Shown here in pieces: positions 2,833 through 20,961 of a DNA stretch of 37,921 nt. The notes below the pieces were generated by a model. The model had not been told where the DNA came from. It searched no databases and saw only the letters and a list, made by a program, of their open reading frames with translations. Positions within the stretch are counted from its first letter, which is position 1; each line of letters starts with the position of its first letter. The translations under genes were made by a program, and so were the position numbers. The stretch comes from Litorilinea aerophila (lineage in GTDB: Bacteria; Chloroflexota; Anaerolineae; Caldilineales; Caldilineaceae). The stretch covers positions 1 to 37,921 of the forward strand of contig CAMDEX010000023.1 in the NCBI GenBank assembly GCA_945897075.1. Direction: 5' to 3'.

Positions 2833-3705
2833 TTGCAAAGCAATGTGTTTCCCCAGCCAGCGGTCTTGAGCCGCCGGTTGCGTGGGCGGATCTCTTTGTG
2901 GCAGCGGGTCGCGGAGTTGTACCGATTCCGCGATCTGCTCTACTATCTGGTGGTACGCGAATTAAAAGCCCGCTACAAAGGCAGTCTGCTCGGCTTTCTG
3001 TGGACACTGGTGAATCCATTGCTGATGATGCTAGTCTTTACAGCCGTCTTTACGATCATCACACCGAACGCGACCGTACCCCAATACCCCGTTTTCCTCC
3101 TGTGCGGTCTACTGCCCTGGAACTTTTTCAGTGCCGGTGTCATGACAAGTATCGGCAGTGTGGTCGGCAACGCCAATCTCGTCAAAAAAGTCTACTTCCC
3201 GCGCGAAGTTTTACCGATTGCCTCGGTTCTGGCCCAGTTGGTCAATTTTCTGTTGGCTTTGGTGGTTCTTTTTGCGCTGCTCTTTGTCTTCCAGGCCGAT
3301 ATTAGCCCCTACGTCTTTCTGTTGCCTCTCGTTATAGCGATTCAGACTATTTTTATCGTTGGACTGGCACTTTTATTGAGTGCCGTGAATGTCTATTATC
3401 GTGACACGATGATGATCATGGATGTCGTGATTTTGGCCTGGTTTTTCCTGACGCCCATCTTCTATCCCCTGAACATTCTGCCCCAAAGCTACGTAGCCTT
3501 TGGCGTTACCCTCAATATCCACCGGCTGATGTACATACTAAACCCGATGGCCTCCATCATCAATGCCTATCGCGATCTGCTTTATCTGGGGACGTACACG
3601 GAGATTGACTTCCTCCTGCGCACGGCGCTCACATCTCTGGGGGTGCTGCTCTTTGGCTACTGGCTTTTCACACGGGTCAGCGGCAACTTTGGCGAGGAGG
3701 TCTGA
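2833..3705 (+). CDS. wzm: ABC-2 polysaccharide export permease (Wzm type)
   Basis: This is the transmembrane half of an ABC-2 glycan exporter, which passes lipid-linked polysaccharide across the cytoplasmic membrane. The 290-residue length is typical. An amphipathic N-terminus (RFRDLLYYLVVRELKARYKG) leads into the first helix at LLGFLWTLVNPLLMMLV, and about six membrane segments follow. The start is TTG at 2833: AGAGGAG (2818-2824) sits 8 bases upstream and the next in-frame Met lies inside the first membrane segment. The stop codon overlaps the start of the ATPase gene (TGATG), so the two are probably translationally coupled. Confidence 0.93.
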   Translation: MQSNVFPQPAVLSRRLRGRISLWQRVAELYRFRDLLYYLVVRELKARYKGSLLGFLWTLVNPLLMMLVFTAVFTIITPNATVPQYPVFLLCGLLPWNFFSAGVMTSIGSVVGNANLVKKVYFPREVLPIASVLAQLVNFLLALVVLFALLFVFQADISPYVFLLPLVIAIQTIFIVGLALLLSAVNVYYRDTMMIMDVVILAWFFLTPIFYPLNILPQSYVAFGVTLNIHRLMYILNPMASIINAYRDLLYLGTYTEIDFLLRTALTSLGVLLFGYWLFTRVSGNFGEEV

Positions 3706-5051: not shown

Positions 5052-5054
5052 GTG

Positions 5055-6350
5055 ATGGAAACCCAATTCCCCGGCATGGATTACGACTTTTTGCGTTATA
5101 TGGGTGTCTTCCCGGAAAACCAGCGGCGCATCCAGAGCCACTATACGCCCTATTTCGAGCGTTGTCAGCGGGTGGTGGACCTGGCCTGCGGCGACGCGGA
5201 TTTTGTGGGTATGTTGGTGGAGCGGGGCATTGAAGTAATCGGCGTGGATTCTGACGACAAAGCCTTTGCGGCGGCAGCATCCAAGGGGCTGCCGGTGGTT
5301 CAGGCGGATGTCTTCGACTGGCTGGCTGCCCAACCGGACAACAGCTTTGATGGCGTCTTCAGCGCCCATTTGATCGAGCATCTGCCCTATCCGAAGGTAG
5401 TCGAACTGATCGAACAGTCCTACCGGATTCTGCAGCCGGGCGGGGTGATTCTGCTGGTGACGCCCAATGCCCGCTCGCTCTTCTCCCACCTGGAGATGTT
5501 CTACACCCACTTTGGCCACGTCACCTTTTATCATCCGCGCCTAGTCAGCTTCTTTTTGGATCGGGCGGGGTTTGTCAATCTGCACACCGACGAAAACCCC
5601 ATCACCGCGTCCCCTCTGCTCCCCGACCTGCGTCGGCTTTTGCAAGAACCCATGCCGCCTGCTATCGCTGGGCAGAACGCTTCATCCAGCGCCGAGGTAA
5701 CGCTGCCCAATTGGGTCTGGCCCACAGAGTCACCCACGCCTCTCCCTTCTTTGCCCCCGGCTGAGAAAGCGGACGAATTTGACCAAAAAGTCCAGATTCT
5801 TTATCGCAACGAAGTACCTCTACAGGGGCGAACGCCCTTTCATTACCTGAGCTATTGGGCGAAAAAGCTGTTGACCGGCTGGTTGGTGCGGCCATTGACC
5901 GATTCACTGGCTGAATCACTGGCTGAAAATGCCCAAGCGCAAGCCTGCAGTGCCCAGGCGCAGGTCAGCAGAATGCAGGAAGAGATGGCGGCGAACAACC
6001 GTCGCCTTGCGGAATTGTTCCGCCAAATGTTGGAGCAGCAGCAAGCCCTGGCCGAGGCGCGCCAGCAGATGGTAGGGGAACGGATCGATCTCTTGTGTCA
6101 ATCGCTCCAACAGCTACACGGACTGCTACAACAGGAGCAAACCATCCGCCACGATCAGGTATCACATCTGGAGAGTGCCGAACGGGAAATCCACCAGCAA
6201 TTGCGCGCTTTTGCGGCGGATATACAGCGGCTGAATGGCCCCTTTGAAGCATTTATATGGGCCTATAAGCCCGTAGAGGTGAACGAAGTAGAGGTGAACG
6301 AAGTAGAGGTGAACGAAATAAATTTGGAAACCAATGAGGAGCAGCCGTAG
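5055..6350 (+). CDS. SAM-dependent methyltransferase with coiled-coil tail, candidate chain terminator
   Basis: Residues 1-240 form a class I methyltransferase: motif I VVDLACGDADF with the acidic GVDSDD strand after it, then HLIEHLPYP and ILQPGGVILLVTPN. Residues about 285-400 are rich in Gln, Glu, Ala and Leu in heptad-like spacing (QEEMAANNRRLAELFRQML), a probable coiled coil. The C-terminus carries three exact VEVNE repeats. The gene directly follows wzt. In O8/O9a systems a methyl-adding terminator with a coiled coil sets chain length and the Wzt C-terminal domain reads the cap; this protein fits that role but lacks a kinase domain. The start is ATG 5055, preceded by AGGTG; GTG at 5052 also works. 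The target sugar is unknown. Confidence 0.8.
   Translation: METQFPGMDYDFLRYMGVFPENQRRIQSHYTPYFERCQRVVDLACGDADFVGMLVERGIEVIGVDSDDKAFAAAASKGLPVVQADVFDWLAAQPDNSFDGVFSAHLIEHLPYPKVVELIEQSYRILQPGGVILLVTPNARSLFSHLEMFYTHFGHVTFYHPRLVSFFLDRAGFVNLHTDENPITASPLLPDLRRLLQEPMPPAIAGQNASSSAEVTLPNWVWPTESPTPLPSLPPAEKADEFDQKVQILYRNEVPLQGRTPFHYLSYWAKKLLTGWLVRPLTDSLAESLAENAQAQACSAQAQVSRMQEEMAANNRRLAELFRQMLEQQQALAEARQQMVGERIDLLCQSLQQLHGLLQQEQTIRHDQVSHLESAEREIHQQLRAFAADIQRLNGPFEAFIWAYKPVEVNEVEVNEVEVNEINLETNEEQP
6273..6317 (+). repeat. Three perfect 15-bp tandem copies inside the methyltransferase gene
   Basis: GTAGAGGTGAACGAA occurs three times with no mismatch and encodes VEVNE three times just before the stop codon. 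The copy number is a multiple of codons, so slippage would lengthen or shorten the tail without a frameshift. Confidence 0.9.
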
Positions 6351-6353
6351 ACA

Positions 6354-8153
6354 ATGGAATGGCCGAAAGTCAGTGTCGTCGTATTGAATTATAACGGGAA
6401 ACAGCATCTGGCCGATTGTCTCAGCTCTTTGCTGGAATTGGACTATCCCACCGAGAAACTCGAACTCCTGCTGGTGGACAACGCCTCGGCAGACGATTCG
6501 GTTGCCTTTGTCCGCCAGAATTTTCCCCGGGTGCGGGTGGTGCAGAATCCGGACAATCTGGGCTTTGCCGCGGGCAACAACCGGGGCGCAGAGGCAGCTA
6601 CCGGCGAGTATGTCGCCCTCCTTAACAACGACACCCGCGTCGATCCCCAATGGGTGAAAGAGTTGGTGCGTCCCTGTCTGGAAGAAGAAGATGTGGTCTG
6701 TACCGCATCCAAAATGCTCTCTTGGGACGGCAAGATGGTTGATTTTGCCTGTTCCGCCATGAACTTTCACGCCTTCGCATTTCAACCAGACCACGGCCTC
6801 CCCGACACCTTTCACGAACGCATCCCGCTGCTTTTTGCCTGTGGCGGCGCGATGTTGATCAGACGGGATGTCTTTTTGGATGTGGGCGGGTTTGATGAGG
6901 ACTATTTTATCTATTTTGAGGATATGGACCTGGGCTGGCGTCTCTGGATCGAGGGATATCGCGTGCTCTTTTCTCCTGCCGCCGTTGTTTATCACCGGCT
7001 GCACGCCACGATGGACGCCTTCACCGGTTTTCGTAAGTGGGTTTTGTTTGAACGCAATGCCCTGATGACGCTGCTCAAAAACTATGCCGATGACGACTTG
7101 CACAAAATGCTCTCGGCATCTCTGCTGCTGATGTTCCGTCGCTCAGGCCGATTGATGCAGGAACACGGATGGGATGTGCGTCCTTACTATATCCGCAACT
7201 CGCAAGCAGCCGATCTGCATGAGAACGTAAGCCGTGCCGGGCTTTCTGTGCTGGTTGCAGCTAACGAGGTTATTGACCAATTGCCGCGTATCTTTGAGAA
7301 GCGGGCACAAATCCAGGCGCGGCGCAAACGTAGCGATAGCGAGGTCTTTCAGCACTTCGCATTGCCGCTCTTCGTTCACCCCATTCTGCACCGGGACGCC
7401 CAGGCCCACTACGACGTCGTACACTATCTGGGGGTCAGCCAACTCTTTCGGGATGTTCCCCGCCGCGTTCTGTTGGTCAGCCAACGCAACCAGAGCGCAT
7501 TGGGTTCTGTTGCCCCGCACAGCGGGATCGGCTTTTCGTCCATCGGCGACAGTCTGGCCGCGGCCGGGCACAGCGTCTTCTATGGATTCAAGGGCGACGA
7601 TGGCAGCGCATCCCCAGCCGCAGAAAACAGCCGTCAACGGGTCTATCAGTGGGGGCGGACTGGTTTGAACAGTCTGGTCAACAGTATCAATCCTGAACTA
7701 ATCATTGCCCTCGATTCAGAGGTGCTGGCCGAGCTGGGCAATTGTCCCGTTCCTCTGGTCTTTGTGCCGCTGGGCGATGATGATTTCCCCACGGCGCAGG
7801 CGAGGGGTGAACTCGTCGGGGAACGGAACAGCATCGATCTGCGCCTGGATAGCAGAGAAAATGTAGCCGATACAGGCCGGGTTGACGATACGCGACGGCT
7901 TCTACTCGATCCCAACGGGCTGGACGAGCTGGAGCAGTTTTGCCGGATGCCCCGTAAATTCCAGCGACAAGGATACGAATCCACCACACAGGAGGCGGGC
8001 GCTGGCGACAGTGCCTTTTCCGCGCCGCCGCCGCCCAAGTCTTTGCGTCAGTTGGCACAAGAGGCCGCTCTTCACTTCCGGCAAAGAGGAGCCAAAGGCT
8101 TTCTCTATGAGTTTTTCGGCTTTTTGCAGAAACAGGTCGAGCGGCGGCTTTAG
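6354..8153 (+). CDS. Glycosyltransferase family 2 with extra GT4-N-like domain
   Basis: Residues 1-260 are an inverting GT-A domain: VSVVVLNYNG at the start, metal-binding LLNNDT with Asp near 93, GGAMLIRRDVF, and the ED-x-D-x-x-W-R helix (FEDMDLGWR) near 189. This subtype is common among rhamnosyltransferases. Residues about 368-560 look like the N-terminal half of a GT4 enzyme (RRVLLVS, then GDSLAAAGHSVFYGF, then NPELIIALDSEVL) without its donor-binding half. The last 40 residues match the tail of the next gene's product (LRQLAQEAALHFRQRGAKG). ATG 6354 has GAGGAG at 6336-6341, a slightly long 12-base spacing. Donor and linkage are not known. Confidence 0.85.
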   Translation: MEWPKVSVVVLNYNGKQHLADCLSSLLELDYPTEKLELLLVDNASADDSVAFVRQNFPRVRVVQNPDNLGFAAGNNRGAEAATGEYVALLNNDTRVDPQWVKELVRPCLEEEDVVCTASKMLSWDGKMVDFACSAMNFHAFAFQPDHGLPDTFHERIPLLFACGGAMLIRRDVFLDVGGFDEDYFIYFEDMDLGWRLWIEGYRVLFSPAAVVYHRLHATMDAFTGFRKWVLFERNALMTLLKNYADDDLHKMLSASLLLMFRRSGRLMQEHGWDVRPYYIRNSQAADLHENVSRAGLSVLVAANEVIDQLPRIFEKRAQIQARRKRSDSEVFQHFALPLFVHPILHRDAQAHYDVVHYLGVSQLFRDVPRRVLLVSQRNQSALGSVAPHSGIGFSSIGDSLAAAGHSVFYGFKGDDGSASPAAENSRQRVYQWGRTGLNSLVNSINPELIIALDSEVLAELGNCPVPLVFVPLGDDDFPTAQARGELVGERNSIDLRLDSRENVADTGRVDDTRRLLLDPNGLDELEQFCRMPRKFQRQGYESTTQEAGAGDSAFSAPPPPKSLRQLAQEAALHFRQRGAKGFLYEFFGFLQKQVERRL

Positions 8154-8292: not shown

Positions 8293-9600
8293 ATGTCTAC
8301 AGCCAAACGTATTCTGCTCATCAGTTCTGATATTCTTCCCTTCCCCGGTCTTCCCACTACGGGAGCGGGTCTGCGTGCCTGGTCGTTGGGCAAGGGACTC
8401 GAACACTACGGCCATTCTGTCCACTACTCGATGCCTTCCCGCTCGTTGCAGTCAGAGTGGAAAGAGCAAATCCCAGAGGATGTAGCTGCAATCGCCTGGG
8501 AGGTGGGATCGATTCAGCCAATCCTGGACAGGGTGCAACCGGATGTTTTGATTGTGTGTAACTGGCCTGTCCTGGCGATGATCCCCGACAGATTGGAAAT
8601 GCCGGTCGTTCTGGATCAACACGGACCGCACCTGCTGGAAAGACACTTTCAACAGTATGGCAACGTTGCCAACAATATCCGGGACAAGTTACACGCTTTT
8701 TCAAAGGCTGATTTCTTCACCTGCGCGGGCAGCCAACAGATGCTCTATTTTTATCCCTGGCTGGTGCAGGCTGGGTTTGACATCTCCGCAAATGCTTATG
8801 CTTTTATTCCAATCTCCCTCTCCCCGGAGATTCAGGAACATTCGACAGCCAAGAATGACGAGACAACTTTTGTCTACGGTGGCGTGTTTTTGCCCTGGCA
8901 GAATCCCACGCTTTCCCTCTCCATTCTGGTGGAAGAAATGGAAAGAAGTGGCCGGGGGCGGCTGCTCTTCTTTGGGGGCAAGCATCCACTCTATCCTGTT
9001 GATACGGGCGTCTTCGAATCGTTAAAGGCGCAGTTGGAAAAAAGTAGTCATGTGTACTTTCAGCCTATGCGCCCGCGTGATGAGATTGTCGAAATATATG
9101 CGCACGCAGATGTTGCCATCGATCTGATGGATCGCAACCCGGAGCGTGAACTTGCCTTTACCACCCGCACTGTCGAGTATTTGTGGTGTGGTCTGCCCGT
9201 TATCTACAACAATTACGCAGAGTTGGCACCGCTGATTCGCGAGTATAATGCAGGCTGGGCTTTGGATCCCCAGAACAAGGACGCAATCCGAGAGGTAATT
9301 CGGAGTATTTTGGAAGATCCGCAACAGCTAAAAGTATGCGGCCGGAACGCTCATACACTGGTCAATGAAAAGTTGACCTGGGATCGCACAATCACACCGC
9401 TCGAAAATTTTGTACGGAATCCAATCTATCGCCCAAATCGGCACGCCCGCTTCCGCTCTGAAAACCCAGAACCCTCGATTGCAAGTAAATCTTTGGGGCA
9501 ATTGGTAGACGAAGCTGTCTATCATTATCGCCAGCGCGGCGTCAGTGGATTGCTGCAGGAGAGTTATGGCTTTGCAAAGCGGAGAATAAAAGGAATGTAA
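8293..9600 (+). CDS. Glycosyltransferase, GT4-like (GT-B)
   Basis: This is a 435-residue GT-B enzyme, probably cytoplasmic. The N-terminus reads RILLISSDILPFPG, then GLEHYGHSVHYSMP and QPDVLIVCNW. The C-terminal half has VYGGVFLPWQNP at its first strand and the donor-binding segment FTTRTVEYLWCGLPVIYNN. The last 36 residues (SLGQLVDEAVYHYRQRGVSG and onward) match the tail of the preceding GT2, although the two enzymes belong to different folds. ATG at 8293 lies after the palindromic element and lacks a clear Shine-Dalgarno, so translation may be weak or depend on structure upstream. The acceptor is not known. Confidence 0.8.
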   Translation: MSTAKRILLISSDILPFPGLPTTGAGLRAWSLGKGLEHYGHSVHYSMPSRSLQSEWKEQIPEDVAAIAWEVGSIQPILDRVQPDVLIVCNWPVLAMIPDRLEMPVVLDQHGPHLLERHFQQYGNVANNIRDKLHAFSKADFFTCAGSQQMLYFYPWLVQAGFDISANAYAFIPISLSPEIQEHSTAKNDETTFVYGGVFLPWQNPTLSLSILVEEMERSGRGRLLFFGGKHPLYPVDTGVFESLKAQLEKSSHVYFQPMRPRDEIVEIYAHADVAIDLMDRNPERELAFTTRTVEYLWCGLPVIYNNYAELAPLIREYNAGWALDPQNKDAIREVIRSILEDPQQLKVCGRNAHTLVNEKLTWDRTITPLENFVRNPIYRPNRHARFRSENPEPSIASKSLGQLVDEAVYHYRQRGVSGLLQESYGFAKRRIKGM

Positions 9601-9603
9601 AAG

Positions 9604-12600
9604 ATGAAAAAGATAACCATTCTTCTGGCATTCGTCATTTTTGTAGGCGTATCAGTTGCTTACTCTTTCCAGACGGCAAAAGCCGAAACAGATGTAACCT
9701 TTGATCTGATCACCCCTCTTGCCGGCGGTACGTTGATTGGCGAGACCCCTGAGTATCGAACCCTCGTCTGGCAAGACCCCTGGGATATGAATAACACAGG
9801 GGATCTGACCCAGTTGGATTCGCCTTGCACAGAAGCAAACCAATTCAGTGATTCCCAGTTCAGTGGCGGCATCTGGACCGGCACCCCCAATGCCTCTCAA
9901 GCCGAAAATCATTGGATCACCCTTCTCTCGCCGGAATTTCCCAGCACGCTACCCCTGGGGACGGATGGGCGTCTGCAACCCGTCGATCCCGCTCTCTATA
10001 CCCAATTGACGATCAAAATGTATGTAAGCGCCGTCGATCCGGTCACCAATCCTGGCGCGCGCCTGACCTGGACGCGCAGGGATGGCAGGGACGGCAACAA
10101 TGGATCGGAGACAAAAGACTGGGGTGACTCCAACTATTTTCGCACCTATGCGGGTTGGCATATCTATTCCATCGATCTGACCAAAATTGGGCTGCTCTCC
10201 TTTAGCAACCGCAAAATGAATTGGACTGACGCCGATCGCATCACCGGTCTCACCCTCTATCCGGATCAAAAATCGGGCGGAAAGAGCATCAAAATTGATT
10301 GGGCGCGGCTTTCGCCCCGCGCCAATTATGCCGTCGGTTGGAATACACAAGGGACGATCCCCAGCGACGCCGTGACCTTTGATTTGGATTCTGGCGACGG
10401 GCTGGGCAATGCGCCGATTCACTTCTACGAAAATCAGATCAGTTTTAATGTGGCGCAACCGGTGAAAGTATTGGCCAGCGCAGGCGCATTCACCTTTCCC
10501 GCCTCGCTGCCACCCGGTCAACATACTTTGCGCGCATCCACAGCCGGTCTCTCCGATTCTGGTATCTGGCAGATCGACGCCGCCCCGCTGCTGACCTTTT
10601 CCAATCCCACTTTTTTCTCCGGCGAGGAATATGCAACGACTGAGCTGGGCGACCCCTGGGATTTTAGTACACTGGGCGATGTGGAACGGACGCAGAATAT
10701 CCAGTCGGCTGTGATTGAAAACGGGACATACAAAGCCAGCCATGCCGCAACAGGAGCGAACTGTTCCCAGCAGTGGTCCGATTCTGCGATCTTCCTGCGT
10801 ATGGGCGCGCCCATTGACCCGAACAAATACCGCTATCTCTCCTTTGATGTGCGTCTTGCCGGCACAACGGACATTCTCAATGGCTGGATGTCCCGTCTCC
10901 TCTGGTACGACGCGACCGGCTTTCCCAATATTGGCTCGACCAATGACATTATCAACCGCGCTGGTTGGAACAGACATATCCTGGATATGTGGCGCAGCGA
11001 TCTGCAGGACGATGGCGATCCCGGTCTGCGCGGCTGGCGACAAGCCCCTGTCACCCAATTGCGTATTGATCTGGATACTGTGCCCCAGGCGCAGACCTTC
11101 TATCTGGATAACGTAAAACTGCACGCGCTGCCTGTGGCAACCGGCCTTTTCAACATAAGCTGGACGTTGACAGAACAACAGAATGTGACCATCACAGTGG
11201 GCTACGACAGCGATCAGAGCGGCTACAATGGCACTGTGATCGCAAGCGGTCTTACGGGCGCATCCTACCAGTGGAATACCAGCGGCATTGCGGATGGGCT
11301 TTACTATCTTTATGCGCTGGTGACCGATGGCCTCAACCAGACCCGTTTCTATAGCGAGACACCCGTGCAGGTAGCGAAAACGGTTACCAACGCTGCCTTT
11401 CTCCAACCCGACGGCACAAACGATCTGGTTGCGCTGGGCACCGAATACGCCCGCGATGTGCTGCTGAACGCCTGGGATATGGGCGGCGCGGACGATATTG
11501 ACCGCAGCGCGCCGGATCGCTACAATGGCATGACGGATCCCGTTTTTGACGGCCAGACGATGAGCGTCCGCTCATCCAGCCACGATCCCTACTTCTGGCT
11601 GGCGTGGGATGTCACCAAACCGATTAACGCAGCCAAATTCAACCGAATCGCCCTGCGCATCTATTCAGAGCGGGCCGGCCAGGGGCAGCTCTGGTGGTTT
11701 ACCGATGCCAACCAGAGCCAATTGATCGAAGGGCCCTCCTTTACGGTTGAGCCTGGGTGGCAGGTCTATTCGATTGACCTTTCTGCCCATTCAGGCTGGA
11801 AGGGATCCATTCGCTTATTGCGCCTAGACCCGCTGGACAAAACCGATGCGGAGATTAAGATTGATTGGGTGCGGCTGACTCCCAAGAACGAACGCACCTT
11901 TTCTGTCCAGTGGACTGGGGACAACCGGCAGAATTCTACACTCGCTCTCTATTATGCCGACAACAAAAATGGCCTGAACAAAGAGCGGATCGCGGCGGGG
12001 TTGGACGGAAGCACCGGCGTCTATAACTGGGACACCAGCCATCTGACCAACGGAATCTACTACCTTTTTGGCTATATTTCGGTGCAAAACGCGCCCGGCA
12101 TCTGGTTCTCCTCGACGAATGGGGTGACGGTGCCGCAGCCGCTGATCGAGGTGACCAAACCGGCCCAGACGGGGACTCTTATCGGCGAGACGCCCGACTA
12201 TCGAACTCTGGCCTGGCGCGACCCCTGGGATATGAGCAACGTGGGCGATATGGTGCAGTTGGATTCGCCCTGCTTGCAGCCCAACCAATTCGATACCTTT
12301 GATTTTGCCAATGGAATCTGGAGCGGGACCCCCAGCCCGGCTTACAACGAAAGTCACTGGATCTCTCTGCTCTCGCCGGGCTACCGCGGCGCTTTGCCCG
12401 TGGACATTGATGGACGGCTGCGCCCGATTGATCCAAAAGTCTACACACAATTGACGGTCAAAATGTACGTGAGTGCCATTGATGCTCAGACCGATCCGGG
12501 GGCGCGTATCCTGTGGACGCGCCGGGACCTCAAAGCCTACGGCGATGGCGCGGAAGGCGCGGACTGGGGTGAATCCAACTATTTCCGCACCTATCCCGGC

Positions 12601-14637
12601 TGGCATATCTACTCGATCGATCTGACCAAAATCGGGTTGCTGGACCCCGGCCTGAGCCGTCTGGAGTGGACGAAAGCAGAGAAGATCACCGGTCTACGCA
12701 TCGATCCGGATCAGAAGTCCAGCGGCAAAACCTTCAAAATTGATTGGATTCGCCTTTCGCCCCGCTCCAATCAGCAGATCAACTGGAACAGCCAGGGTGT
12801 CAGTGATCTGGCCGCCATCAACTTTGCCATAGACTCTGGCGATGGCATGGGCGTTGTGCCGATTCATTTCTATGAAAACCAGAGCTTGTATGATGTCACC
12901 CAGCCGGTTGTGGTGTTGGCCAAAAATGGTACTTTCTCATTCCCGGCCTCCCTTCCCCCCGGCAATCAGACCCTGCGCGCGGCTGTGGGGGGCGCATCCG
13001 CCAGCGGTTTTTGGCAAATCGATGCGGCCCCTCTGTTAACTTTTACCAGCCCCAGTCCATTTTCGGGAGAGGAATATGCCGCCAGCGTTCTGGGCGATCC
13101 CTGGGATTTCAATAGCATTTCCGACCTGGATTCCACCCAGAATGTCATCGCCCCAGAGGTTGCCAACGGCGTATATAAAGGAAGGCATGAAGCTACCGGG
13201 AGCGAGTGTTCCCAGCAGTGGTCGGATTCGGGCGTCTTCCTGCGTATGGGCACGCCCATCGATCCGGAGCAATATCGCTACCTGACCTTCAAACTGCGTA
13301 TGGAAGGCGCAGCCGCAGACATCAGCAATGGCTGGATCACACGCATCATCTGGTACGATGCCCAAGGTTTCCCCGTTGTGGGTACGTCGGAGGACATTAT
13401 CAACCGGGTGGGCTGGAACACCCATACGATCGATCTCTGGCGCGGCGATCTGCGCGACGACGAAGACCCCGGTCTGCGCGACTGGCGTCAGGACCTGGTG
13501 ACAGAACTGCGTATTGATTTGGATGAGGTGCCCCAGGCCCAGACCTCTTATTTGGATAGTGTTGCCCTGCATGCCGTGCCCGTCGCCAGCGGCAATCTTC
13601 TGGTGAGCTGGGAACTCAGCGAACAGGCGGGGATATCGATCACACTGGGCTATGACACGGATGCCGCTGGTTATGATGGCGTGAAGATCAGCAGCGGGGT
13701 GACGGGCACGAGCTATCTGTGGCAGAGCAGCGCCCCCCCCGATGGACTCTATTACCTCTATGCGCTGGTCAGCGATGGCGTCAACCAGAGCCGTTTCTAC
13801 AGCGATGCCCCTGTGCGGGTGGTCACTTCACCATCCGAGGTCATATTTACCCAACCCAACGGCGTGCCCGGCTATGTTCCGCTGGGCGAGGAATTTGGCC
13901 GCGATCTTCTGCAAAACGCCTGGGATATGAACGGCGCGGATGACATTGACCGCAGCGAAGCGGGACGCTACAATGGCTTGAGCGATCCTGTCTTTGACAA
14001 GGGCAAAATGAGTGTGCGCTCCACCAACCACGATCCCTACCTCTGGCTTTCCTGGAATATCAACAAGCCGATCGACGCCACCCGCTTCAAACGGGTTTCT
14101 CTCCATCTCTACTCGGAGCGGGCGGGGCAGGGGCAACTCTGGTGGTTTACCAACGAAGCCAACAGCCAGTTCATTGAAGGACCCAAATTCACTGTTGTGC
14201 CCGGTTGGCGCGTCTACTACTTCGATCTCTCGGCGCAGCCCGGATGGGGCGGTTCCATTCGCCTGCTGCGTCTCGATCCACTGGACAAGGCGGATGCGAA
14301 TATCACAATTGACTGGGTTCGCCTGACCCCGAAAAACGAGCGTCTCTTTACAGTCAAGTGGCAAGGACAAAATCTGGCTGGCTCGTCCCTGGCTCTCTAT
14401 TACGCCATTGATAAGCAGGGCACAGAGAAGCACGTCATCGCTGAGAATATCCCCGCCGACGCCGGTCAGTATATCTGGGACACAGCAGACCTGCCCTTTG
14501 GCGTCTACTATATCTTCGGCCATTTGAAGAATGGCTCTGGGAGCGGTCTATGGACCTATTCGACGTCTCCGCTTGGCGTCGGGATCGATCTCTCAAACCT
14601 GACGTTGAAACTCTTTGTGCCTATCATCAGAAGGTAA
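9604..14637 (+). CDS. Giant secreted repeat protein, (A-B-C)x2 jelly-roll-like modules
   Basis: I do not recognise a named family for this 1677-residue protein. A Sec signal peptide ends at AKA (residues 25-27). The rest is two copies of a block of about 815 residues. Each block has module A (W-D-M Trp at 60 and 875; ends KIDWARLSP), an Ig-like linker, module B (W-D-F Trp at 352 and 1167; ends YLDNVKLHA), another linker, module C (W-D-M Trp at 624 and 1440; ends IDWVRLTPKNER), and a third linker. The I-D-W-V-R-L and L-D-N-V endings recall the last strand of carbohydrate-binding jelly rolls. No catalytic motif is visible. The C-terminus is LKLFVPIIRR. It is probably a surface scaffold or glycan binder, possibly the acceptor of the exported glycan; this role is inferred. 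Confidence 0.85.
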   Translation: MKKITILLAFVIFVGVSVAYSFQTAKAETDVTFDLITPLAGGTLIGETPEYRTLVWQDPWDMNNTGDLTQLDSPCTEANQFSDSQFSGGIWTGTPNASQAENHWITLLSPEFPSTLPLGTDGRLQPVDPALYTQLTIKMYVSAVDPVTNPGARLTWTRRDGRDGNNGSETKDWGDSNYFRTYAGWHIYSIDLTKIGLLSFSNRKMNWTDADRITGLTLYPDQKSGGKSIKIDWARLSPRANYAVGWNTQGTIPSDAVTFDLDSGDGLGNAPIHFYENQISFNVAQPVKVLASAGAFTFPASLPPGQHTLRASTAGLSDSGIWQIDAAPLLTFSNPTFFSGEEYATTELGDPWDFSTLGDVERTQNIQSAVIENGTYKASHAATGANCSQQWSDSAIFLRMGAPIDPNKYRYLSFDVRLAGTTDILNGWMSRLLWYDATGFPNIGSTNDIINRAGWNRHILDMWRSDLQDDGDPGLRGWRQAPVTQLRIDLDTVPQAQTFYLDNVKLHALPVATGLFNISWTLTEQQNVTITVGYDSDQSGYNGTVIASGLTGASYQWNTSGIADGLYYLYALVTDGLNQTRFYSETPVQVAKTVTNAAFLQPDGTNDLVALGTEYARDVLLNAWDMGGADDIDRSAPDRYNGMTDPVFDGQTMSVRSSSHDPYFWLAWDVTKPINAAKFNRIALRIYSERAGQGQLWWFTDANQSQLIEGPSFTVEPGWQVYSIDLSAHSGWKGSIRLLRLDPLDKTDAEIKIDWVRLTPKNERTFSVQWTGDNRQNSTLALYYADNKNGLNKERIAAGLDGSTGVYNWDTSHLTNGIYYLFGYISVQNAPGIWFSSTNGVTVPQPLIEVTKPAQTGTLIGETPDYRTLAWRDPWDMSNVGDMVQLDSPCLQPNQFDTFDFANGIWSGTPSPAYNESHWISLLSPGYRGALPVDIDGRLRPIDPKVYTQLTVKMYVSAIDAQTDPGARILWTRRDLKAYGDGAEGADWGESNYFRTYPGWHIYSIDLTKIGLLDPGLSRLEWTKAEKITGLRIDPDQKSSGKTFKIDWIRLSPRSNQQINWNSQGVSDLAAINFAIDSGDGMGVVPIHFYENQSLYDVTQPVVVLAKNGTFSFPASLPPGNQTLRAAVGGASASGFWQIDAAPLLTFTSPSPFSGEEYAASVLGDPWDFNSISDLDSTQNVIAPEVANGVYKGRHEATGSECSQQWSDSGVFLRMGTPIDPEQYRYLTFKLRMEGAAADISNGWITRIIWYDAQGFPVVGTSEDIINRVGWNTHTIDLWRGDLRDDEDPGLRDWRQDLVTELRIDLDEVPQAQTSYLDSVALHAVPVASGNLLVSWELSEQAGISITLGYDTDAAGYDGVKISSGVTGTSYLWQSSAPPDGLYYLYALVSDGVNQSRFYSDAPVRVVTSPSEVIFTQPNGVPGYVPLGEEFGRDLLQNAWDMNGADDIDRSEAGRYNGLSDPVFDKGKMSVRSTNHDPYLWLSWNINKPIDATRFKRVSLHLYSERAGQGQLWWFTNEANSQFIEGPKFTVVPGWRVYYFDLSAQPGWGGSIRLLRLDPLDKADANITIDWVRLTPKNERLFTVKWQGQNLAGSSLALYYAIDKQGTEKHVIAENIPADAGQYIWDTADLPFGVYYIFGHLKNGSGSGLWTYSTSPLGVGIDLSNLTLKLFVPIIRR
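9720..14600 (+). repeat. Tandem duplication of about 2445 bp inside the giant gene
   Basis: The hallmark Trp codons recur at a constant offset: 9781 to 12226, 10657 to 13102 and 11473 to 13921, i.e. 2445, 2445 and 2448 bp. The two units are clearly diverged at the protein level, so the duplication is old and is being kept. Confidence 0.85.
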
Positions 14638-14641
14638 ATTT

Positions 14642-14705
14642 GAAAAACCGAGTTTCTGTTATGCCGCTACCAGACTAGATTTGTCCACGAGAAACTCGGT
14701 TTTTC
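14642..14705. terminator. Long-loop inverted repeat, possible bidirectional terminator
   Basis: GAAAAACCGAGTTTCT (14642-14657) is exactly complementary to AGAAACTCGGTTTTTC (14690-14705) across a 32-base loop. It begins 4 bases after the stop codon of the giant gene, and the right arm ends in five T residues. It could terminate transcription or be a dispersed MITE-like repeat. Confidence 0.5.
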
Positions 14706-14719
14706 TCGCCCTGACATCC

Positions 14720-14768
14720 AAAGTCCCCGGCGCTTGCGGTCCCAACAACCGCAAGCGCCGGGGACTTT
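14720..14768. terminator. Perfect 21-bp GC-rich hairpin, likely terminator or insulator
   Basis: The arms 14720-14740 and 14748-14768 are fully complementary over 21 bp with a 7-base loop (CCCAACA). The arms start AAAGTCCCCGG and end CCGGGGACTTT. The long GC-rich stem followed by TTT suits a terminator. It stands between the two secreted-protein genes and just upstream of a promoter. Confidence 0.6.
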
Positions 14769-14792
14769 GCTATAATCCAAATAGCACTTTGT

Positions 14793-14822
14793 TTGGCAAT
14801 AGGAGAGATGGAAAGGTATAAT
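14793..14822 (+). promoter_or_regulatory. Strong sigma70-like promoter for the second secreted protein
   Basis: TTGGCA (14793-14798) and TATAAT (14817-14822) are separated by 18 bp, 5 of 6 and 6 of 6 matches. The start would be near 14829, giving a leader of about 105 bases. Another TATAAT at 14771-14776 has no matching -35 box. Together with the two hairpins upstream this makes the following gene a separate transcription unit. Confidence 0.7.
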
Positions 14823-14935
14823 CCATTTAACCTCTGTGACAAATTCAGGCAATTTCTGCGCCCTATTGGTCTGGAAATAGGATTTTTTAGACTTAACACC
14901 CTTATCCCACCCCAAAATCTTTCAGGAGAATCGCC

Positions 14936-16795
14936 ATGAAAATTGCTGATCGAGTGTTTCAACTTGTTTTCATCGTAGGATTGGCTTATCTCTTTTCGGG
15001 CAGTGCATTCATTCCAACTGTGGAAGCCAAAAGCCAGGGCACGATTACGCTGACTTCTCCGGCCCCCAATGGAACAGAAGTCGGGGAGACGGGCGATTAC
15101 CGCAGTCTGATCTGGAAAGACGCCTGGGATATGAACAACGTCGGGGATGTGGTTCAACTTGACTCCCCTTGCGTTCAGGCCAATCAATACAGCTCCTCCA
15201 ATTTTTCGGGCGGCGTGTGGACGGGTACACCGAACCCGGCCTACGGCGAAGATCATTGGGTCTTTTTGCTCTCCCCCGGTTATCGCGGTGCGCTTGCCAC
15301 GGATCTCGATGGCCGCCTGCAACCCATCGATCCAAAAGTCTACACACAACTGACGATCAAGATGTTCATTAGCAGCGTCGATCCAGTTTCGGATCCCGGC
15401 GCGCGCTTGATGTGGACACGCACTGACGTCAAGGCATTCGGCAATGCCCAGGAACCCAATGATTGGGGTGAGTCCAATTACTTCCGCACCTACAGTGGCT
15501 GGCATATCTATTCGATTGATTTGACCCAAATCGGGCTTCTCAGCTTCAGCCCGGCCAAACTCAATTGGACGGCTGCGGACATCATCACCGGTCTGCGTCT
15601 CGATCCGGATCAGAAGTCCGGGGGCAAAAGCATCAAAATTGATTGGGTGCGTCTCTCGGCCAAATCCAATTATCCGGTTACATGGACGGCCTCGGGTGTT
15701 GGCGGCAGCACAGAAGTGCAGTTTGCAGTGAATTCTGGCGACGCCGGGGGGGCAACCCCCATCCATTTCTACGCCGGCAATGTGCAATTTAACGTGGCCC
15801 AGGAAGAGAAAGTATTAGCAAATGCCCAGTCATTCGTCTTCCCCGCCTCTTTGCCTCCTGGCGATCAGGAGCTGCGGGCTACGGTGGATGGCAACCCAGA
15901 CACGGGCCTCTGGACTGTCAATGCCGATCCCATCCTCACCTTCACCAATCCCAGTATAGCCTCCGGCGAAGAGTATGCCCAGAGTACACTCAACGATCCC
16001 TGGGATTTCAATGTCATGGGGGATGTGGCTTCGACACAGAATGTCATCTCTTCATCCATTGACAACGAGACGTTCAAGGGTTCTCATGCGGCAACCGGGG
16101 TTGGCTGTTCACAGGATTGGTCCGATTCCGGCGTCCTCCTGCGGATGGGCGCGCCGATTGATTCGTCAAAGTATCGCTTTCTCACATTCAAGACCCGGCT
16201 GGAGGGAACAGCCGATATCAGTTTTGGCTGGATGTCGCGCATCATCTGGTACGACGGCACAGGTTTCCCGAATGTGGGCACGTCGAACGACATCATCAAC
16301 CGGGATGGCTGGAATACACACATCATCGATCTGTGGCGCAGTGACTTGCGTGACGATGAGGATCCCGGTGTGCGCGGTTGGCAAGAAGGGGCCGTGCATC
16401 AATTGAGAATTGACGTGGATGAAGTTCCCGCAGAACAGACCTTCTATCTGGATGATGTGCAACTTCATGCAGAACCTGTAGGTGCAGGGGTTTTCACCGC
16501 CACCTGGTCTCTCTCCGGGGATGCCCGCTCGTCAGCCGAAGCAGATGCAGCCACGATTACTCTGGGCTACGACACGGACGCCCAGGGCTATAACGGAACA
16601 GTCATTGCCACTGGCATCACAGGCAATCAATACGTTTGGGACACATCAAACATAGCATCTGGTCGCTATTATCTCTACGCAATTGTGAACGATGGCGTCA
16701 ATGAGACGCGTTTCTACAGCGATGTGCCTGTGCGCATCGTGCTGGATCCGTCAACTCTGACCAACAAAACTTACATTCCTCTGGTAAAACGATAG
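14936..16795 (+). CDS. Secreted A-B repeat protein, companion of the giant repeat protein
   Basis: This 619-residue protein is a paralogue of about three quarters of one block of the preceding gene product. A signal peptide ends at VEA (residues 29-31). Module A follows (Trp of D-A-W-D-M at 64; ends KIDWVRLSA), then an Ig-like linker, module B (Trp of D-P-W-D-F at 356; ends YLDDVQLHA), and a final Ig-like domain (ITLGYDTDAQGYNG). Module C is absent. The C-terminus is NKTYIPLVKR, matching in pattern the end of the larger protein. ATG 14936 has AGGAG (14924-14928) 7 bases upstream. Its own promoter and leader suggest it is made in larger amounts than its neighbours. The function is unknown; carbohydrate binding or cell-wall assembly is inferred. 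Confidence 0.85.
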   Translation: MKIADRVFQLVFIVGLAYLFSGSAFIPTVEAKSQGTITLTSPAPNGTEVGETGDYRSLIWKDAWDMNNVGDVVQLDSPCVQANQYSSSNFSGGVWTGTPNPAYGEDHWVFLLSPGYRGALATDLDGRLQPIDPKVYTQLTIKMFISSVDPVSDPGARLMWTRTDVKAFGNAQEPNDWGESNYFRTYSGWHIYSIDLTQIGLLSFSPAKLNWTAADIITGLRLDPDQKSGGKSIKIDWVRLSAKSNYPVTWTASGVGGSTEVQFAVNSGDAGGATPIHFYAGNVQFNVAQEEKVLANAQSFVFPASLPPGDQELRATVDGNPDTGLWTVNADPILTFTNPSIASGEEYAQSTLNDPWDFNVMGDVASTQNVISSSIDNETFKGSHAATGVGCSQDWSDSGVLLRMGAPIDSSKYRFLTFKTRLEGTADISFGWMSRIIWYDGTGFPNVGTSNDIINRDGWNTHIIDLWRSDLRDDEDPGVRGWQEGAVHQLRIDVDEVPAEQTFYLDDVQLHAEPVGAGVFTATWSLSGDARSSAEADAATITLGYDTDAQGYNGTVIATGITGNQYVWDTSNIASGRYYLYAIVNDGVNETRFYSDVPVRIVLDPSTLTNKTYIPLVKR

Positions 16796-16802
16796 GACTC
16801 TT

Positions 16803-17939
16803 ATGACTGCAAACACATCTCGTCGCGTTCTCGTCACCGGCGGGGCCGGCTTCATCGGCTCCCACATCGTAGACGCCCTGTTGGAGCGGGGCTACGACGT
16901 GACGGTCTACGACAACCTGGACGCCCAGGTTCACGGCGCAGAACGCAAACGACCCGACTATCTGAACCCCGCCGCGGCGCTGATTGTGGGCGATGTGTGC
17001 GACCGGGAAGCGCTGAAAAACGCACTGGCCGGTATCGAAATCGTCTACCACCAGGCCGCGGCTGTGGGCGTCGGCCAGTCCATGTACGACATTTTGCGCT
17101 ACACCCGCATCAACACAATGGGCGCTGCCACCCTGCTGGATATCATCGCCAACGAAAAGCACAGCGTGCGTAAGATGATCGTCGCCTCGTCTATGTCCAT
17201 CTATGGCGAAGGGGAATATCGATGCACGACCCACGGCGTCGTCTACCCCAAACTGCGGACAGTCGAACAATTTGAAGCCCACGATTGGGAGGTACGCTGC
17301 CCCGTCTGCGGCGAAGCTGTTGAGCGGGAAGGCACATCCGAGGAGAAGCCCCTCTTCCCCACCTCCGTCTACGCCATCAACAAACGCGATCACGAAGAGA
17401 TGTTCCTCAGCGTGGGCCGAGCCTACGGCATCCCGACGGTTGCCCTGCGCTATTTCAACGTCTATGGCCCACGCCAGGCCCTCTCCAACCCCTACACCGG
17501 CGTAGCGGCCATCTTTTCCAGCCGCCTGCTCAACGGCAACGCGCCGTTGATCTACGAGGACGGTTTACAGACCCGGGATTTCACCCACGTTTCCGATATT
17601 GTGCAGGCCAATATGCTTGCCCTGGAAAAGGAGGAGGCCAACTACGAAGTCTTCAATGTAGGCACAGGCCGCCCCTTTTCCATTCGCGACATGGCCGACG
17701 CCCTGGCCGAACACCTGGGCGTGGACGTGCAGCCGGAGATCGCCAACAAATTCCGCGAGGGCGACATCCGCCACTGCTACGCCGACATCAGCAAAGCCCG
17801 CCGGCTGTTGGGCTACGAGCCGAAAATGCGCTTTGAAGATGGCGTGCCGGAATTGGTCAATTGGGTGCGCCACCAAAAGGCCGTGGACAATGTGGCCCAA
17901 GCCGCCAGCGAATTGGAACGGCGCGGTCTGACGCGATAA
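16803..17939 (+). CDS. NAD-dependent sugar epimerase, dTDP-L-rhamnose 4-epimerase-like
   Basis: This is an extended short-chain dehydrogenase/reductase. The cofactor motif TGGAGFIG is near residues 12-19, and the catalytic Y-x3-K is Tyr190/Lys194 (YAINK) after the SSMSIYG serine segment. An insert between them carries C-x2-H (Cys141, His144) and C-x2-C (Cys166, Cys169), a possible zinc knuckle. This insert, with GxVYPxLRTVEQ around it, is typical of proteins annotated as dTDP-L-rhamnose 4-epimerase, which make dTDP-6-deoxy-L-talose; UDP-sugar epimerases lack it. The length (378) fits. It is the only nucleotide-sugar enzyme of the locus, so dTDP-rhamnose must come from elsewhere. Substrate assignment is by family resemblance only. 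AGGA at 16795-16798 precedes ATG 16803. Confidence 0.8.
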   Translation: MTANTSRRVLVTGGAGFIGSHIVDALLERGYDVTVYDNLDAQVHGAERKRPDYLNPAAALIVGDVCDREALKNALAGIEIVYHQAAAVGVGQSMYDILRYTRINTMGAATLLDIIANEKHSVRKMIVASSMSIYGEGEYRCTTHGVVYPKLRTVEQFEAHDWEVRCPVCGEAVEREGTSEEKPLFPTSVYAINKRDHEEMFLSVGRAYGIPTVALRYFNVYGPRQALSNPYTGVAAIFSSRLLNGNAPLIYEDGLQTRDFTHVSDIVQANMLALEKEEANYEVFNVGTGRPFSIRDMADALAEHLGVDVQPEIANKFREGDIRHCYADISKARRLLGYEPKMRFEDGVPELVNWVRHQKAVDNVAQAASELERRGLTR

Positions 17940-17962
17940 CGAACGGTTGGAATAGACTTCTC

Positions 17963-18952
17963 ATGCGTATCAGCGTCGTGGTCATCAACTACAATGGAGA
18001 GCGCCATCTGGCGCAGCTTATCGACGCGCTGCAGGCCCAAACCTTGCGCGATTTCGAGTTTATTTTCATTGACAACGCGTCTGTAGATGGCTCGGTTGCG
18101 TTGGTAGAAAGGCTGTGCGCGCAAGGGGAGACCACCTTTACCCTCATCGCCAACCCGAAGAACGTGGGCTTTGCGCCCGCCTGCAACCAGGGCTTCCGTC
18201 TGGCGCAAGGAAGCTGGGTAGCGCTGCTCAACAACGACGCCTTCCCGGAGCCAGACTGGCTGGAGCATTTGTGGGCAGCGACGCAGGGCGGCTCCCGTCT
18301 GGGTATGATCGCTGCCAAGATGCTCTTCGCCCACGCCCCGGATCGCATCAACTCGGCAGGCATCGCGATTGACCGGGTTGGCATTGCCTGGGATTGGCGC
18401 GGAGGCGAAAAGGATACCCCCAACGAGCAGGCACCCATCGAGATTTTCGGCCCCTGCGGCGGCGCTGCCCTCTATTCCGCAGAGATGCTGGACGAGATCG
18501 GTCTCTTTGACGAAGATTTCTTTCTCTATCTGGAAGATGTAGACTTGGCCTGGCGCGCCCAACTGGCCGGTTGGCGCTGTGTGCTGGAGCCGAAAGCACG
18601 GGTCTACCACGTCCATTCCGCCACATTTGGCAATGCGTCGCCCTTCAAGAGCTACCTCTTGGGGCGTAACAAAGTCTGGCTGATCATAAAAAACTATCCC
18701 AGCCCGTGGCTGCTCGTCTATCTGCCTGTCATCCTCGGCTACGATCTGATGTCTGTGATTGTGGGCACGATCCGCAGCCGCAACTTCTCTGCGCTGCAAG
18801 GGCGGCTGGCCGCGCTGCGCCAACTGCCCCATTTTCTGCGCAAGCGGCGACAGATTCAGGCCCAGCCCCGTAGCGGCGACAACTGGCAAACGCTGATGGC
18901 TCCGTTGGCGTTGCCCAGTGCCGTGCTAAAGCGCTACGCCCACCTGCGATGA
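17963..18952 (+). CDS. Glycosyltransferase family 2
   Basis: This is an inverting GT-A enzyme of 329 residues. It starts with ISVVVINYNGERHL, has LLNNDA with the metal-binding Asp near 92, GPCGGAALYSAEML, and the YLEDVDLAWR helix near 190. These are features of the rhamnosyltransferase-like GT2 subgroup. ATG 17963 is chosen because the conserved first strand begins there; an upstream extension would run into the epimerase gene. No clear Shine-Dalgarno is present. The stop overlaps the next start as ATGA, so it is coupled to the membrane protein that follows. Donor sugar is not readable from sequence. Confidence 0.88.
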   Translation: MRISVVVINYNGERHLAQLIDALQAQTLRDFEFIFIDNASVDGSVALVERLCAQGETTFTLIANPKNVGFAPACNQGFRLAQGSWVALLNNDAFPEPDWLEHLWAATQGGSRLGMIAAKMLFAHAPDRINSAGIAIDRVGIAWDWRGGEKDTPNEQAPIEIFGPCGGAALYSAEMLDEIGLFDEDFFLYLEDVDLAWRAQLAGWRCVLEPKARVYHVHSATFGNASPFKSYLLGRNKVWLIIKNYPSPWLLVYLPVILGYDLMSVIVGTIRSRNFSALQGRLAALRQLPHFLRKRRQIQAQPRSGDNWQTLMAPLALPSAVLKRYAHLR

Positions 18953-20961
18953 GTATCAATTCTGCGTTCGCCTTCGGTCTGGACTTGGCGCGTATTCTCG
19001 CGGCCACCGCTTTTCTCTACATTCTGCCCGGCCTCGGTTTCACCGTCTGGCTAAGTCGTTCCTACCCTTTGCGCTGGAGCGAACACCTGGCCCTGGCACC
19101 AAGTATCAGTATTGCCCTCTATACCATCATCTTCCTCTGGGCCTACACACTTGGAATCGCCCCTGGCCCTGTCTTGGTCTGGATATTGCCCTTGCTAGGG
19201 GTCGCTTTGGCCCTTTGGCAGAACAGAGAGTGGTTGTCTGGATTTTCCAACGCGCTGGGCAATATAAAAAAAGGAGTGCATCGGGAAAATATGCCCGATC
19301 TGATCCTGCTCTTTCTGATCGGACTGCTCTTTGCCAGCCGCTTCTCGCCCATTCGCCTGCTCACCGAACCCTTCTGGGGCGATTCCGTCCACCACACCTT
19401 CATCACCCAACTGATTGTAGACAACGGCGGCCTCTTTCAGTCCTGGGATCCCTACTCGTCTATCCGCAGCCTGACCTATCACTTCGGCTTTCATGTGGTC
19501 GCGGCCCAGTGGGTCTGGTTGACCGGCGCGCCTGCGCCCGAGGCGGTTCTGATCTTCGGGCAGATCTGCAACGGGCTGGCTGTGCTGGCGCTCTACCCCC
19601 TGGCGCTGCGTCTGAGCGACGGCCCTTCGACCCTTCGACAGGCTCAGGACACCACAAGCTCAGGACACCGCAACCGCTGGGCAGCCATCGGAACCGTCGT
19701 CGTCGCCGGCTTTCTGCTGACAATGCCCGCCTATTATGTCAACTGGGGACGCTACACCCAACTCATCGGTCAGGTGATTTTGCCAGTTCTCATCTGGCTT
19801 TTCGTGGTGGTATGGGACAAAAGTAGCCGCCCCAACCGGGCCTTCTGGGTTGTTGCCGTTTTGCTGGCTGCCGGGTTGGCATTGACCCACTACCGGGTGG
19901 CTTTTTTGGCTGTGACGGCCGGCCTGGGTTGGGGGGTATGGGGGATATGGAAGTTGCGCCGCCAGCCGGGAGAGATCGGTTATCGGCTGCTCTGGTTGGC
20001 AGCGGCAGGTGTCGTCTCTGGTGGACTGATTCTGCCCTGGGTGGTCATCATCCGTGGCGGCGCGATGCAGGACCTCTTTGCGCGGGTAGCTCAGCGCCCG
20101 GCCAGCAACCCGGCACTCGTCCTCGATATGGCGCTCTGGTTGAAAGACGTACCCCGCTTCTATCCAATTTTTTTCTGGGTGGGGGCAATCCTACTCCTCC
20201 TGCTTGCCCTGTGGAAAAAGCGTTCTCTGGCTCTGCCCCTCCTCTTGTGGGCTTGCTTTACCTTTTTCGTCGCCAATCCATTTCTTCTCCGTCTGCCCGG
20301 CACAGGCTGGGTAAGCAACTTTCTGGTCATTATCGCCATTTATATACCCCTGGCCCTGCTCTGGGGCTGGGCGGGTGGATCGGTCGCTGCCTGGCTTTGG
20401 GAACAACGCTTTGGCCCCTGGCTGGTGGGGATTCTTCTGGTTGGGATACTAAGTTGGGGCACGCTTCAACAGGTACGGGTCGTCGATTTTTTTCACCGTA
20501 TGGTCTGGCCCTCCGATCGGATTGCTTTCCAGTGGATCGAAGAAAACACGCCTGCTGACAGCCGCTTTCTGATCAACGGTTTTTCTATTTATACCGGTGT
20601 ACTGGTGGTTGGTTCCGACGCCGGCTGGTGGCTGCCATTCTTTACCCAACGGGCCGCTACCATTCCCCCGGCTTCTTACTTTACCGAACACAACGCCGAG
20701 GGCGGGACGATAGCAGATGTGGACAAGGTTGAAGAAGATGTGCGGGCCAGCAACGGTGACCCTGCACTGCTCCAATCCGTCCTCTGCCGAGACGAAATCA
20801 CCCACGTCTACCTGGGCCAACGACGGGGCGAAGTGGGATTTGGTGCAACCCAGCTTGTGCCGGAGGAGTGGCTGACGCGCAACCCGGTCTTTACGCTGCT
20901 CTTTCAAGAGGAAAAAGCCCAGGTCTGGTCCTTCGACCGCGGCGTCTGTGCCGGAGGATAA
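18949..20961 (+). CDS. Polytopic membrane protein, GT-C-type glycosyltransferase (DUF6541-like)
   Basis: This is a 670-residue protein with many hydrophobic helices, starting with an N-terminal segment of the ILAATAFLYILPGLGFTVWL type. The first long external loop carries FWGDSVHHTFITQLI and a Tyr/His-rich stretch (SLTYHFGFH), where GT-C enzymes keep their catalytic Asp. GT-C proteins use polyprenyl-phosphate sugars on the outer face of the membrane. The last 130 residues are soluble. The closest type I can name is the DUF6541 group; the activity is inferred. ATG 18949 overlaps the previous stop. A repeat-derived stretch of about 16 residues (19623-19669) interrupts the sequence near residue 230. 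Confidence 0.65.
   Translation: MSINSAFAFGLDLARILAATAFLYILPGLGFTVWLSRSYPLRWSEHLALAPSISIALYTIIFLWAYTLGIAPGPVLVWILPLLGVALALWQNREWLSGFSNALGNIKKGVHRENMPDLILLFLIGLLFASRFSPIRLLTEPFWGDSVHHTFITQLIVDNGGLFQSWDPYSSIRSLTYHFGFHVVAAQWVWLTGAPAPEAVLIFGQICNGLAVLALYPLALRLSDGPSTLRQAQDTTSSGHRNRWAAIGTVVVAGFLLTMPAYYVNWGRYTQLIGQVILPVLIWLFVVVWDKSSRPNRAFWVVAVLLAAGLALTHYRVAFLAVTAGLGWGVWGIWKLRRQPGEIGYRLLWLAAAGVVSGGLILPWVVIIRGGAMQDLFARVAQRPASNPALVLDMALWLKDVPRFYPIFFWVGAILLLLLALWKKRSLALPLLLWACFTFFVANPFLLRLPGTGWVSNFLVIIAIYIPLALLWGWAGGSVAAWLWEQRFGPWLVGILLVGILSWGTLQQVRVVDFFHRMVWPSDRIAFQWIEENTPADSRFLINGFSIYTGVLVVGSDAGWWLPFFTQRAATIPPASYFTEHNAEGGTIADVDKVEEDVRASNGDPALLQSVLCRDEITHVYLGQRRGEVGFGATQLVPEEWLTRNPVFTLLFQEEKAQVWSFDRGVCAGG
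19623..19669. repeat. Dispersed palindromic repeat inserted in frame
   Basis: CCCTTCGA occurs twice in a row, then AGGCTCAGGACACC (19640-19653) and AAGCTCAGGACACC (19656-19669). The core CCCTTCGACAGGCTCAGGAC is a repeat type seen in very many copies in some bacterial genomes. Here it adds about 16 residues (PSTLRQAQDTTSSG region) without breaking the frame. Confidence 0.75.

Follow-up and report, generated by a model that had tools for sequence, protein, structure and literature searches.

Secreted proteins with repeated jelly-roll and Ig-like modules in a Wzm/Wzt glycan locus of Litorilinea aerophila

Why would a locus for building and exporting a surface polysaccharide also encode two secreted proteins made of repeated modules? 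The question is raised by Litorilinea aerophila contig CAMDEX010000023.1 (C23), analysed here whole (the window, 37,921 nucleotides of a 6.38-Mb draft genome). In it the genes P1 (9604-14637) and P2 (14936-16795) lie among genes for the ABC exporter Wzm/Wzt and glycosyltransferases (GTs); these and all window genes, modules and tags described below are on the forward strand. Chloroflexota are mostly monoderm and often filamentous, and they are believed to contribute to the structure of flocs and granules in wastewater; how their surface coats are built and held is poorly known.

With moderate confidence, we propose that P1 and P2 serve as secreted scaffolds kept at the cell surface and built of tandem modules, each joining a jelly roll like those of carbohydrate-binding modules (CBMs) to an immunoglobulin (Ig)-like domain, and that they form a conserved part of a Wzm/Wzt-dependent surface polysaccharide locus. 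Their jelly rolls would bind that glycan, while a short YLP-type tag would dock the proteins. Such proteins probably help to hold the sugar coat on the cell.

One composite module in P1 and P2

P1 is a 1677-aa protein with six modules. Its signal peptide (9604-9684, MKKITILLAFVIFVGVSVAYSFQTAKA, cut by eye after AKA) is followed by modules 1 (type A, 9703-10578), 2 (type B, 10579-11394), 3 (type C, 11395-12147), 4 (type A, 12148-13023), 5 (type B, 13024-13842) and 6 (type C, 13843-14598), delimited by motif spacing and alignment, or for module 3 by alignment together with the structural model described below. A motif scan places the C-terminal tag FVPIIRR at 14614-14634. The W-D-[MF] motifs of the six copies stand at residues 60, 352, 624, 875, 1167 and 1440, spaced by 292, 272, 251, 292 and 273, so that copies 1 and 4 are separated by 815 aa. 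P2, of 619 aa, has a signal peptide (14936-15028, MKIADRVFQLVFIVGLAYLFSGSAFIPTVEA, cut by eye after VEA), two aligned modules of types A (15047-15922) and B (15923-16678, the aligned part ending within its Ig domain) and the tag YIPLVKR (16772-16792, motif scan). It is 58% identical to P1 residues 1-600 and 60% identical to residues 845-1413. To the eye both signal peptides look typical, and export is presumably via Sec. Neither protein has a Pfam match to a catalytic domain or to an SLH domain.

A sequence-only reading of this DNA had described both open reading frames (ORFs), their secretion signals and the 815-aa period, all of which we recovered. It had also divided the proteins into three separate modules, A, B and C; the period and copy order stand, the division does not. 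The full lengths of 24 copies from three genomes can be aligned, which makes types A, B and C versions of a single composite module, some 250-290 aa long. In that alignment W27, D34, G121, W135 and D157 are invariant, and the mean column identity is 30%. Most of the 24 modules comprise a jelly roll and an Ig-like domain; a short form of 184-189 aa, devoid of the Ig half, is present in a genus relative of the host (G029) and in a family relative (G031).

Modelled by AlphaFold2 with the 24-module alignment, module C (pLDDT 95.1, pTM 0.88) forms a jelly roll at residues ~1-162 and then an Ig-like domain at ~168-246. Searched against the PDB with Foldseek, the jelly roll found its best single-domain matches in CBM29, CBM4 and CBM11 (probability 1.00; identity 10-14%), with target-normalised TM-scores of 0.51-0.59 for CBM29; other CBM-type beta-sandwiches were also among the matches, and the lowest E-values (down to 6e-7) went to multi-domain glycosidases with beta-sandwich domains. 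The predicted fold is of CBM type, in agreement with the carbohydrate-binding jelly roll surmised earlier from strand endings. BFVD matches were set aside, since most were jelly rolls of a generic kind from phage tails and fibres, and a poor two-module model of P2 (pLDDT 63.8, seven sequences) was kept out of the fold search.

By sequence, only the Ig part appears to fall into a known family. Whole P1 scores 46.4 bits against Kre9_KNH (PF10342; cut-off 24.6) in two stretches, and 10 of the 24 modules match at E<=0.01, a single C module taken by itself staying just under the cut-off at 23.0 bits. The jelly roll belongs to no family of Pfam or NCBIfam: an NCBIfam scan of the module proteins gave no match, and the PDB, searched by sequence with P1 as well as the module profile, returned no CBM and nothing relevant. 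Nor did a search of the host's own genome with PF00754 (F5/8 type C) find a match. The earlier reading, which recognised no named family for these proteins, is supported for the jelly roll. We found no description of the module in the literature.

Conserved Trp and Tyr residues are frequent in the jelly roll (W27, W101, W122, Y125 and W135), and two more aromatics are conserved in the Ig domain (W173 and W212). Read as alignment positions rather than mapped surface sites, they suggest a sugar-binding cleft. The proteins might instead bind a foreign polysaccharide, as adhesins or nutrient-capture scaffolds, and stand in the locus merely as in a hotspot of surface variation. CBM folds are known mostly from polysaccharide-degrading enzymes, and glycoside hydrolase (GH)-like secreted proteins are encoded close by; yet Pfam found no catalytic domain in P1 or P2, and the conservation of gene order over seven families, described below, is unexpected for a hotspot. 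We hold this explanation to be improbable.

Linkage to a glycan export locus

P1 and P2 sit between GT4a (8293-9600), a GT4-type glycosyltransferase preceded by the GT2 glycosyltransferase GT2a (6354-8153), and an NAD-dependent sugar epimerase (16803-17939, Pfam), which is followed by a second GT2 enzyme, GT2b (17861-18952; given as the longest frame, the true start being probably further in). Pfam and synteny mark GT2a and GT4a as conserved upstream neighbours of the module genes and GT2b as a conserved downstream one. We searched 396 genomes of the class with the module profile (E<=1e-5). Matches were found in 33, many being a single Ig or a single jelly roll. Twelve genomes, from seven GTDB families, encode proteins with at least two full modules: G000, G029 and G031 (f1), G091 (f12), G104 and G070 (f26), G170 (f22), G432 (f39), G571, G567 and G391 (f36) and G510 (f4). 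In all 12, one multi-module gene adjoins homologues of GT2a, GT4a or GT2b. Wzm and/or Wzt are encoded on the same contig in nine; the contigs of the other three are short (6.7 kb in G091, 6.9 kb in G070 and 14.9 kb in G510). The co-occurrence with wzm and wzt for which a profile search had been suggested thus extends well beyond this genome. A scan of genome contigs gave three loci only, all from G029 and G031.

Gene order is also kept. Homologues of GT2a and GT4a lie directly 5' of the module gene in f1, f12 (where GT4a comes before GT2a), f26 and f39 (where one methyltransferase-sized gene intervenes), and in f36, f4 and f22 the module gene is beside or near GT2b. G432 has two module genes side by side, as in the window. 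The proteins themselves range from 521 to 1853 aa across relatives, with widely varying numbers of modules. One module protein of G031 (L022, 15899-19957), which ends in YLPALLR, has by eye the look of a fusion with a two-component-regulator-type beta-propeller.

Several points weigh against our proposal. Target-normalised TM-scores of at most 0.59 indicate likeness of predicted fold but do not place the modules in a CBM family; CBM Pfam profiles match none of the 24 modules. Glycan binding is predicted, and CBM-like jelly rolls can have a purely structural role. The link between module gene and glycan locus is strong, not absolute, since two module proteins of G031 (L024 and L063) are encoded away from glycan genes; single Ig or jelly-roll matches also occur outside glycan loci in many other genomes. 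Should the modules be structural beta-sandwich units of a stalk or sheath that bind no sugar, the linkage would reflect co-regulated envelope assembly; their likeness to CBMs is at fold level only, and tandem strings of jelly rolls and Ig domains resemble many surface stalks. The invariant aromatic positions and the specific linkage to a glycan locus speak against such units, which we regard as a shade less probable even than binding to foreign polysaccharide.

The remaining genes bear on how the glycan is made and attached. Upstream of GT2a the locus encodes a GH-like secreted protein (1460-2818), Wzm, the ABC-2 membrane subunit (2833-3705, PF01061), the ATPase Wzt with a C-terminal Wzt_C carbohydrate-binding domain (3705-5051, PF14524) and a methyltransferase (5052-6350, Pfam). 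Downstream of GT2b comes a polytopic membrane protein of the DUF6541 type (18949-20961), with homologues in loci of G029, G031, G170 and G567, and the cluster further holds a PMT-like membrane protein and more GTs. These Pfam matches to Wzm, Wzt and GTs uphold the cluster as it was first read. The GH-like protein has no Pfam match of its own, and is probably lipid-anchored to judge from a lipobox-like LVAC. It has an orthologue in G029 (1e-216) and a homologue in G170 (1e-57) that scores on Glyco_hydro_cc; the recurrence of this second secreted member of the locus counts in favour of the scaffold reading.

The main rival makes P1 and P2 covalent glycan acceptors, S-layer-like glycoproteins bearing the methyl-capped chain exported by Wzm/Wzt, as has been proposed for the S-layer glycosylation (slg) clusters of Geobacillus. 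Wzm/Wzt, GTs and methyltransferase match the slg layout, in which the S-layer gene can be close by (PMC2943079). The proteins are long, repetitive and secreted, and seven Wzy_C matches elsewhere in the genome supply ligase candidates. However, no oligosaccharyltransferase or ligase family (Wzy_C/WaaL-type) has a Pfam match in the window, where some membrane proteins carry no family assignment; the CBM-type fold points to binding rather than to an acceptor role; variable lengths and module numbers are unlike a lattice protein; and no SLH domain was found in P1 or P2. On balance we consider covalent attachment unlikely, if the most serious of the rivals. A priming transferase was not found in the window either.

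DUF6541-type membrane proteins recur beside module genes (in the window and in loci L021, L023, L067 and L113), and are candidates for glycan transfer or modification. In G571 a LytR_cpsA_psr (LCP) gene stands beside Wzm, near the module gene (L112, 5078-6712, reverse strand). LCP enzymes join glycopolymers to peptidoglycan, which fits a wall-attached glycan there, in a monoderm. An NTPase gene of the NB-ARC/STAND type is found near the same locus (L112, 313-1860, reverse strand).

Two elements lie between P1 and P2. A 58-bp palindromic element (14645-14702), near-identical at four places in the genome, is an interspersed repeat. A second long hairpin (14720-14768, AAAGTCCCCGGCGCTTGCGGT...ACCGCAAGCGCCGGGGACTTT) is placed just 5' of a forward-strand promoter-like site before P2, TTGGCA-18-TATAAT (14793-14822); from this site, a consensus match (11/12) only, P2 may have its own promoter.

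The YLP-type tag

Both proteins end in a short motif that the sequence-only reading did not mention and that we add here as a likely docking tag: LKLFVPIIRR in P1 and NKTYIPLVKR in P2. Module proteins of relatives end in YNVYTPTIQR, SIVYLPALLR, NTVMIPLLLR, NKVYLPSALK, KIYLPLLLR, KTYLPLILR or NLYLPLILR. Those of f4, f22, f26 and f36 have no such tail, and carry the motif within the last Ig-like domain, 43-58 residues from the C-terminus (YKVFLPLIRG, FIYLPLVMNN, FLYLPMILNN, FAYLPIAMAR, RRTYLPIVPQ, RRAYLPLVAL and YKVFLPLVTG). A relaxed form of the motif is present in 15 of the 17 module proteins; the exceptions are one with the ending MIPLLLR and another cut off by the contig end. Shuffled copies of a protein contain the relaxed motif somewhere with a chance of 0.16-0.49, so presence in any one protein is weak evidence; the consistent placement argues more strongly for a tag than mere presence does. 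The GH-like partner has the motif too, after the signal peptide in the window (IFLPLV, 1715-1729) and in G029 (IFIPVIER and LYLPMISKR), and at the C-terminus in G170 (HQVYLPALFR).

Beyond the module proteins, [YF][LIV]P[LIVM][LIVM] was found 10 times at the C-terminal end in 379 ORFs from the fetched loci, where four control motifs, reversed or permuted, gave 0, 1, 0 and 0; the count is biased by the choice of loci partly for their module proteins. Less biased is a strict DNA pattern of tail and stop codon, which gave 103 matches in 41 of 201 phylum genomes, against 17 in 15 genomes when permuted; in 19 of 30 loci fetched from this search, the match ends a long ORF of secreted type. Outside the window the motif was noted in loci L079-L103 and L121-L147. 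The host's own genome has 31 matches to a relaxed pattern, against 12 in a reversed control, and 20 of the 27 that were read back end long ORFs. Tagged proteins include GH16+CBM11 and GH44 enzymes, C13 and M14 peptidases, a GDSL lipase, invasin-type Ig proteins and NHL propellers.

P1 and P2 have neither LPXTG nor a transmembrane helix and positive tail, and nothing comes after FVPIIRR and YIPLVKR; the P2 tail has a pLDDT near 30, in the poor model. We rejected the tag as a tyrosine O-glycosylation site, because Phe often replaces Tyr, and as a signal for cleavable sortase-type sorting, because in some proteins it is found within the last Ig domain. Searching plasmids for a named relative with the tail yielded propeller-repeat type matches only, and no description of the motif was found in the literature.

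From its sequence and placement the motif looks like a position-tolerant surface-docking tag. Possibly it is a signal of a new kind for sorting or docking, a reading more surprising than that of the module system. In the wider form of this proposal, [YF][LIV]P[LIV][LIV]x[RK] would be a docking or sorting peptide found throughout Chloroflexota and tolerant of position, functional whether it is C-terminal, in a loop or behind the signal peptide. It would fix secreted proteins of unrelated kinds (glycosidases, peptidases, lipases, propellers, module proteins and the GH-like partner) to a single surface receptor shared by all of them, and would couple the glycan-binding scaffolds to their polysaccharide locus. 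We put this forward tentatively, giving it a little less than an even chance.

Module architecture, predicted CBM-type fold, secretion signals, locus linkage and the common YLP-type motif, each directly supported, lead us to the following scheme. Wzm/Wzt would export the chain, its end probably methyl-capped, to judge from Wzt_C and the methyltransferase by analogy with Aquifex (PMC9445017), and the module proteins would leave by Sec. Once outside, these proteins most likely bind the chain through their repeated, aromatic-rich jelly rolls, non-covalently and multivalently; they would retain, cross-link or organise the glycan on the cell, or be retained by it. The YLP tag would probably serve to dock them on a shared envelope partner, and trimming of the chain may fall to the GH-like protein.

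Genes for an exported polysaccharide, conserved together with those for a dedicated CBM-type scaffold and for a GH-like partner, make a concrete, testable model. If the tag is what it appears to be, it would allow the surface proteome of much of the phylum to be predicted and offer a route to the receptor.

Comparison with known systems

CBM29, CBM4 and CBM11 resemble the jelly-roll half in their beta-sandwich fold and in being aromatic-rich; unlike CBMs, the modules are free of any enzyme, and all but short copies have an Ig partner domain. The Ig-like domain of Kre9/KNH (PF10342) matches the C-terminal third of each module and leaves the jelly roll outside the family.

In the slg clusters of Geobacillus and Paenibacillus, Wzm, Wzt, GTs and methyltransferase activity come together, the glycan is presumed to be ABC-exported, and wsfB can be apart from the cluster (PMC2943079). 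The window likewise joins Wzm/Wzt, GTs and a methyltransferase, but differs in having proteins with CBM-type modules and a secreted GH-like partner, and in that a ligase and a priming transferase were not found in it. In Aquifex, the methyl cap that ends the exported chain is recognised by the C-terminal domain of Wzt (PMC9445017). Wzt_C (PF14524), too, is a sugar-binding jelly roll, and its gene shares the locus with those of the modules; it is cytoplasmic and fused to an ATPase, whereas the modules are secreted and have no Pfam match to PF14524.

Some monoderm surface proteins are held by repeated modules, such as SLH and CWB2, that bind wall polysaccharides. They serve as a working analogy to P1 and P2, whose fold differs and which have no SLH or CWB2 Pfam match. 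Short conserved C-terminal motifs on many unrelated secreted proteins are known from LPXTG/sortase, PEP-CTERM/exosortase and the C-terminal domain (CTD) of T9SS. The YLP tag shares these features; in contrast to such signals it is devoid of TG or a transmembrane helix, its P is followed by only some 4-5 residues, and it may be internal or just after the signal peptide. Altogether, the system is akin to known ABC-exported surface glycans with dedicated surface proteins.

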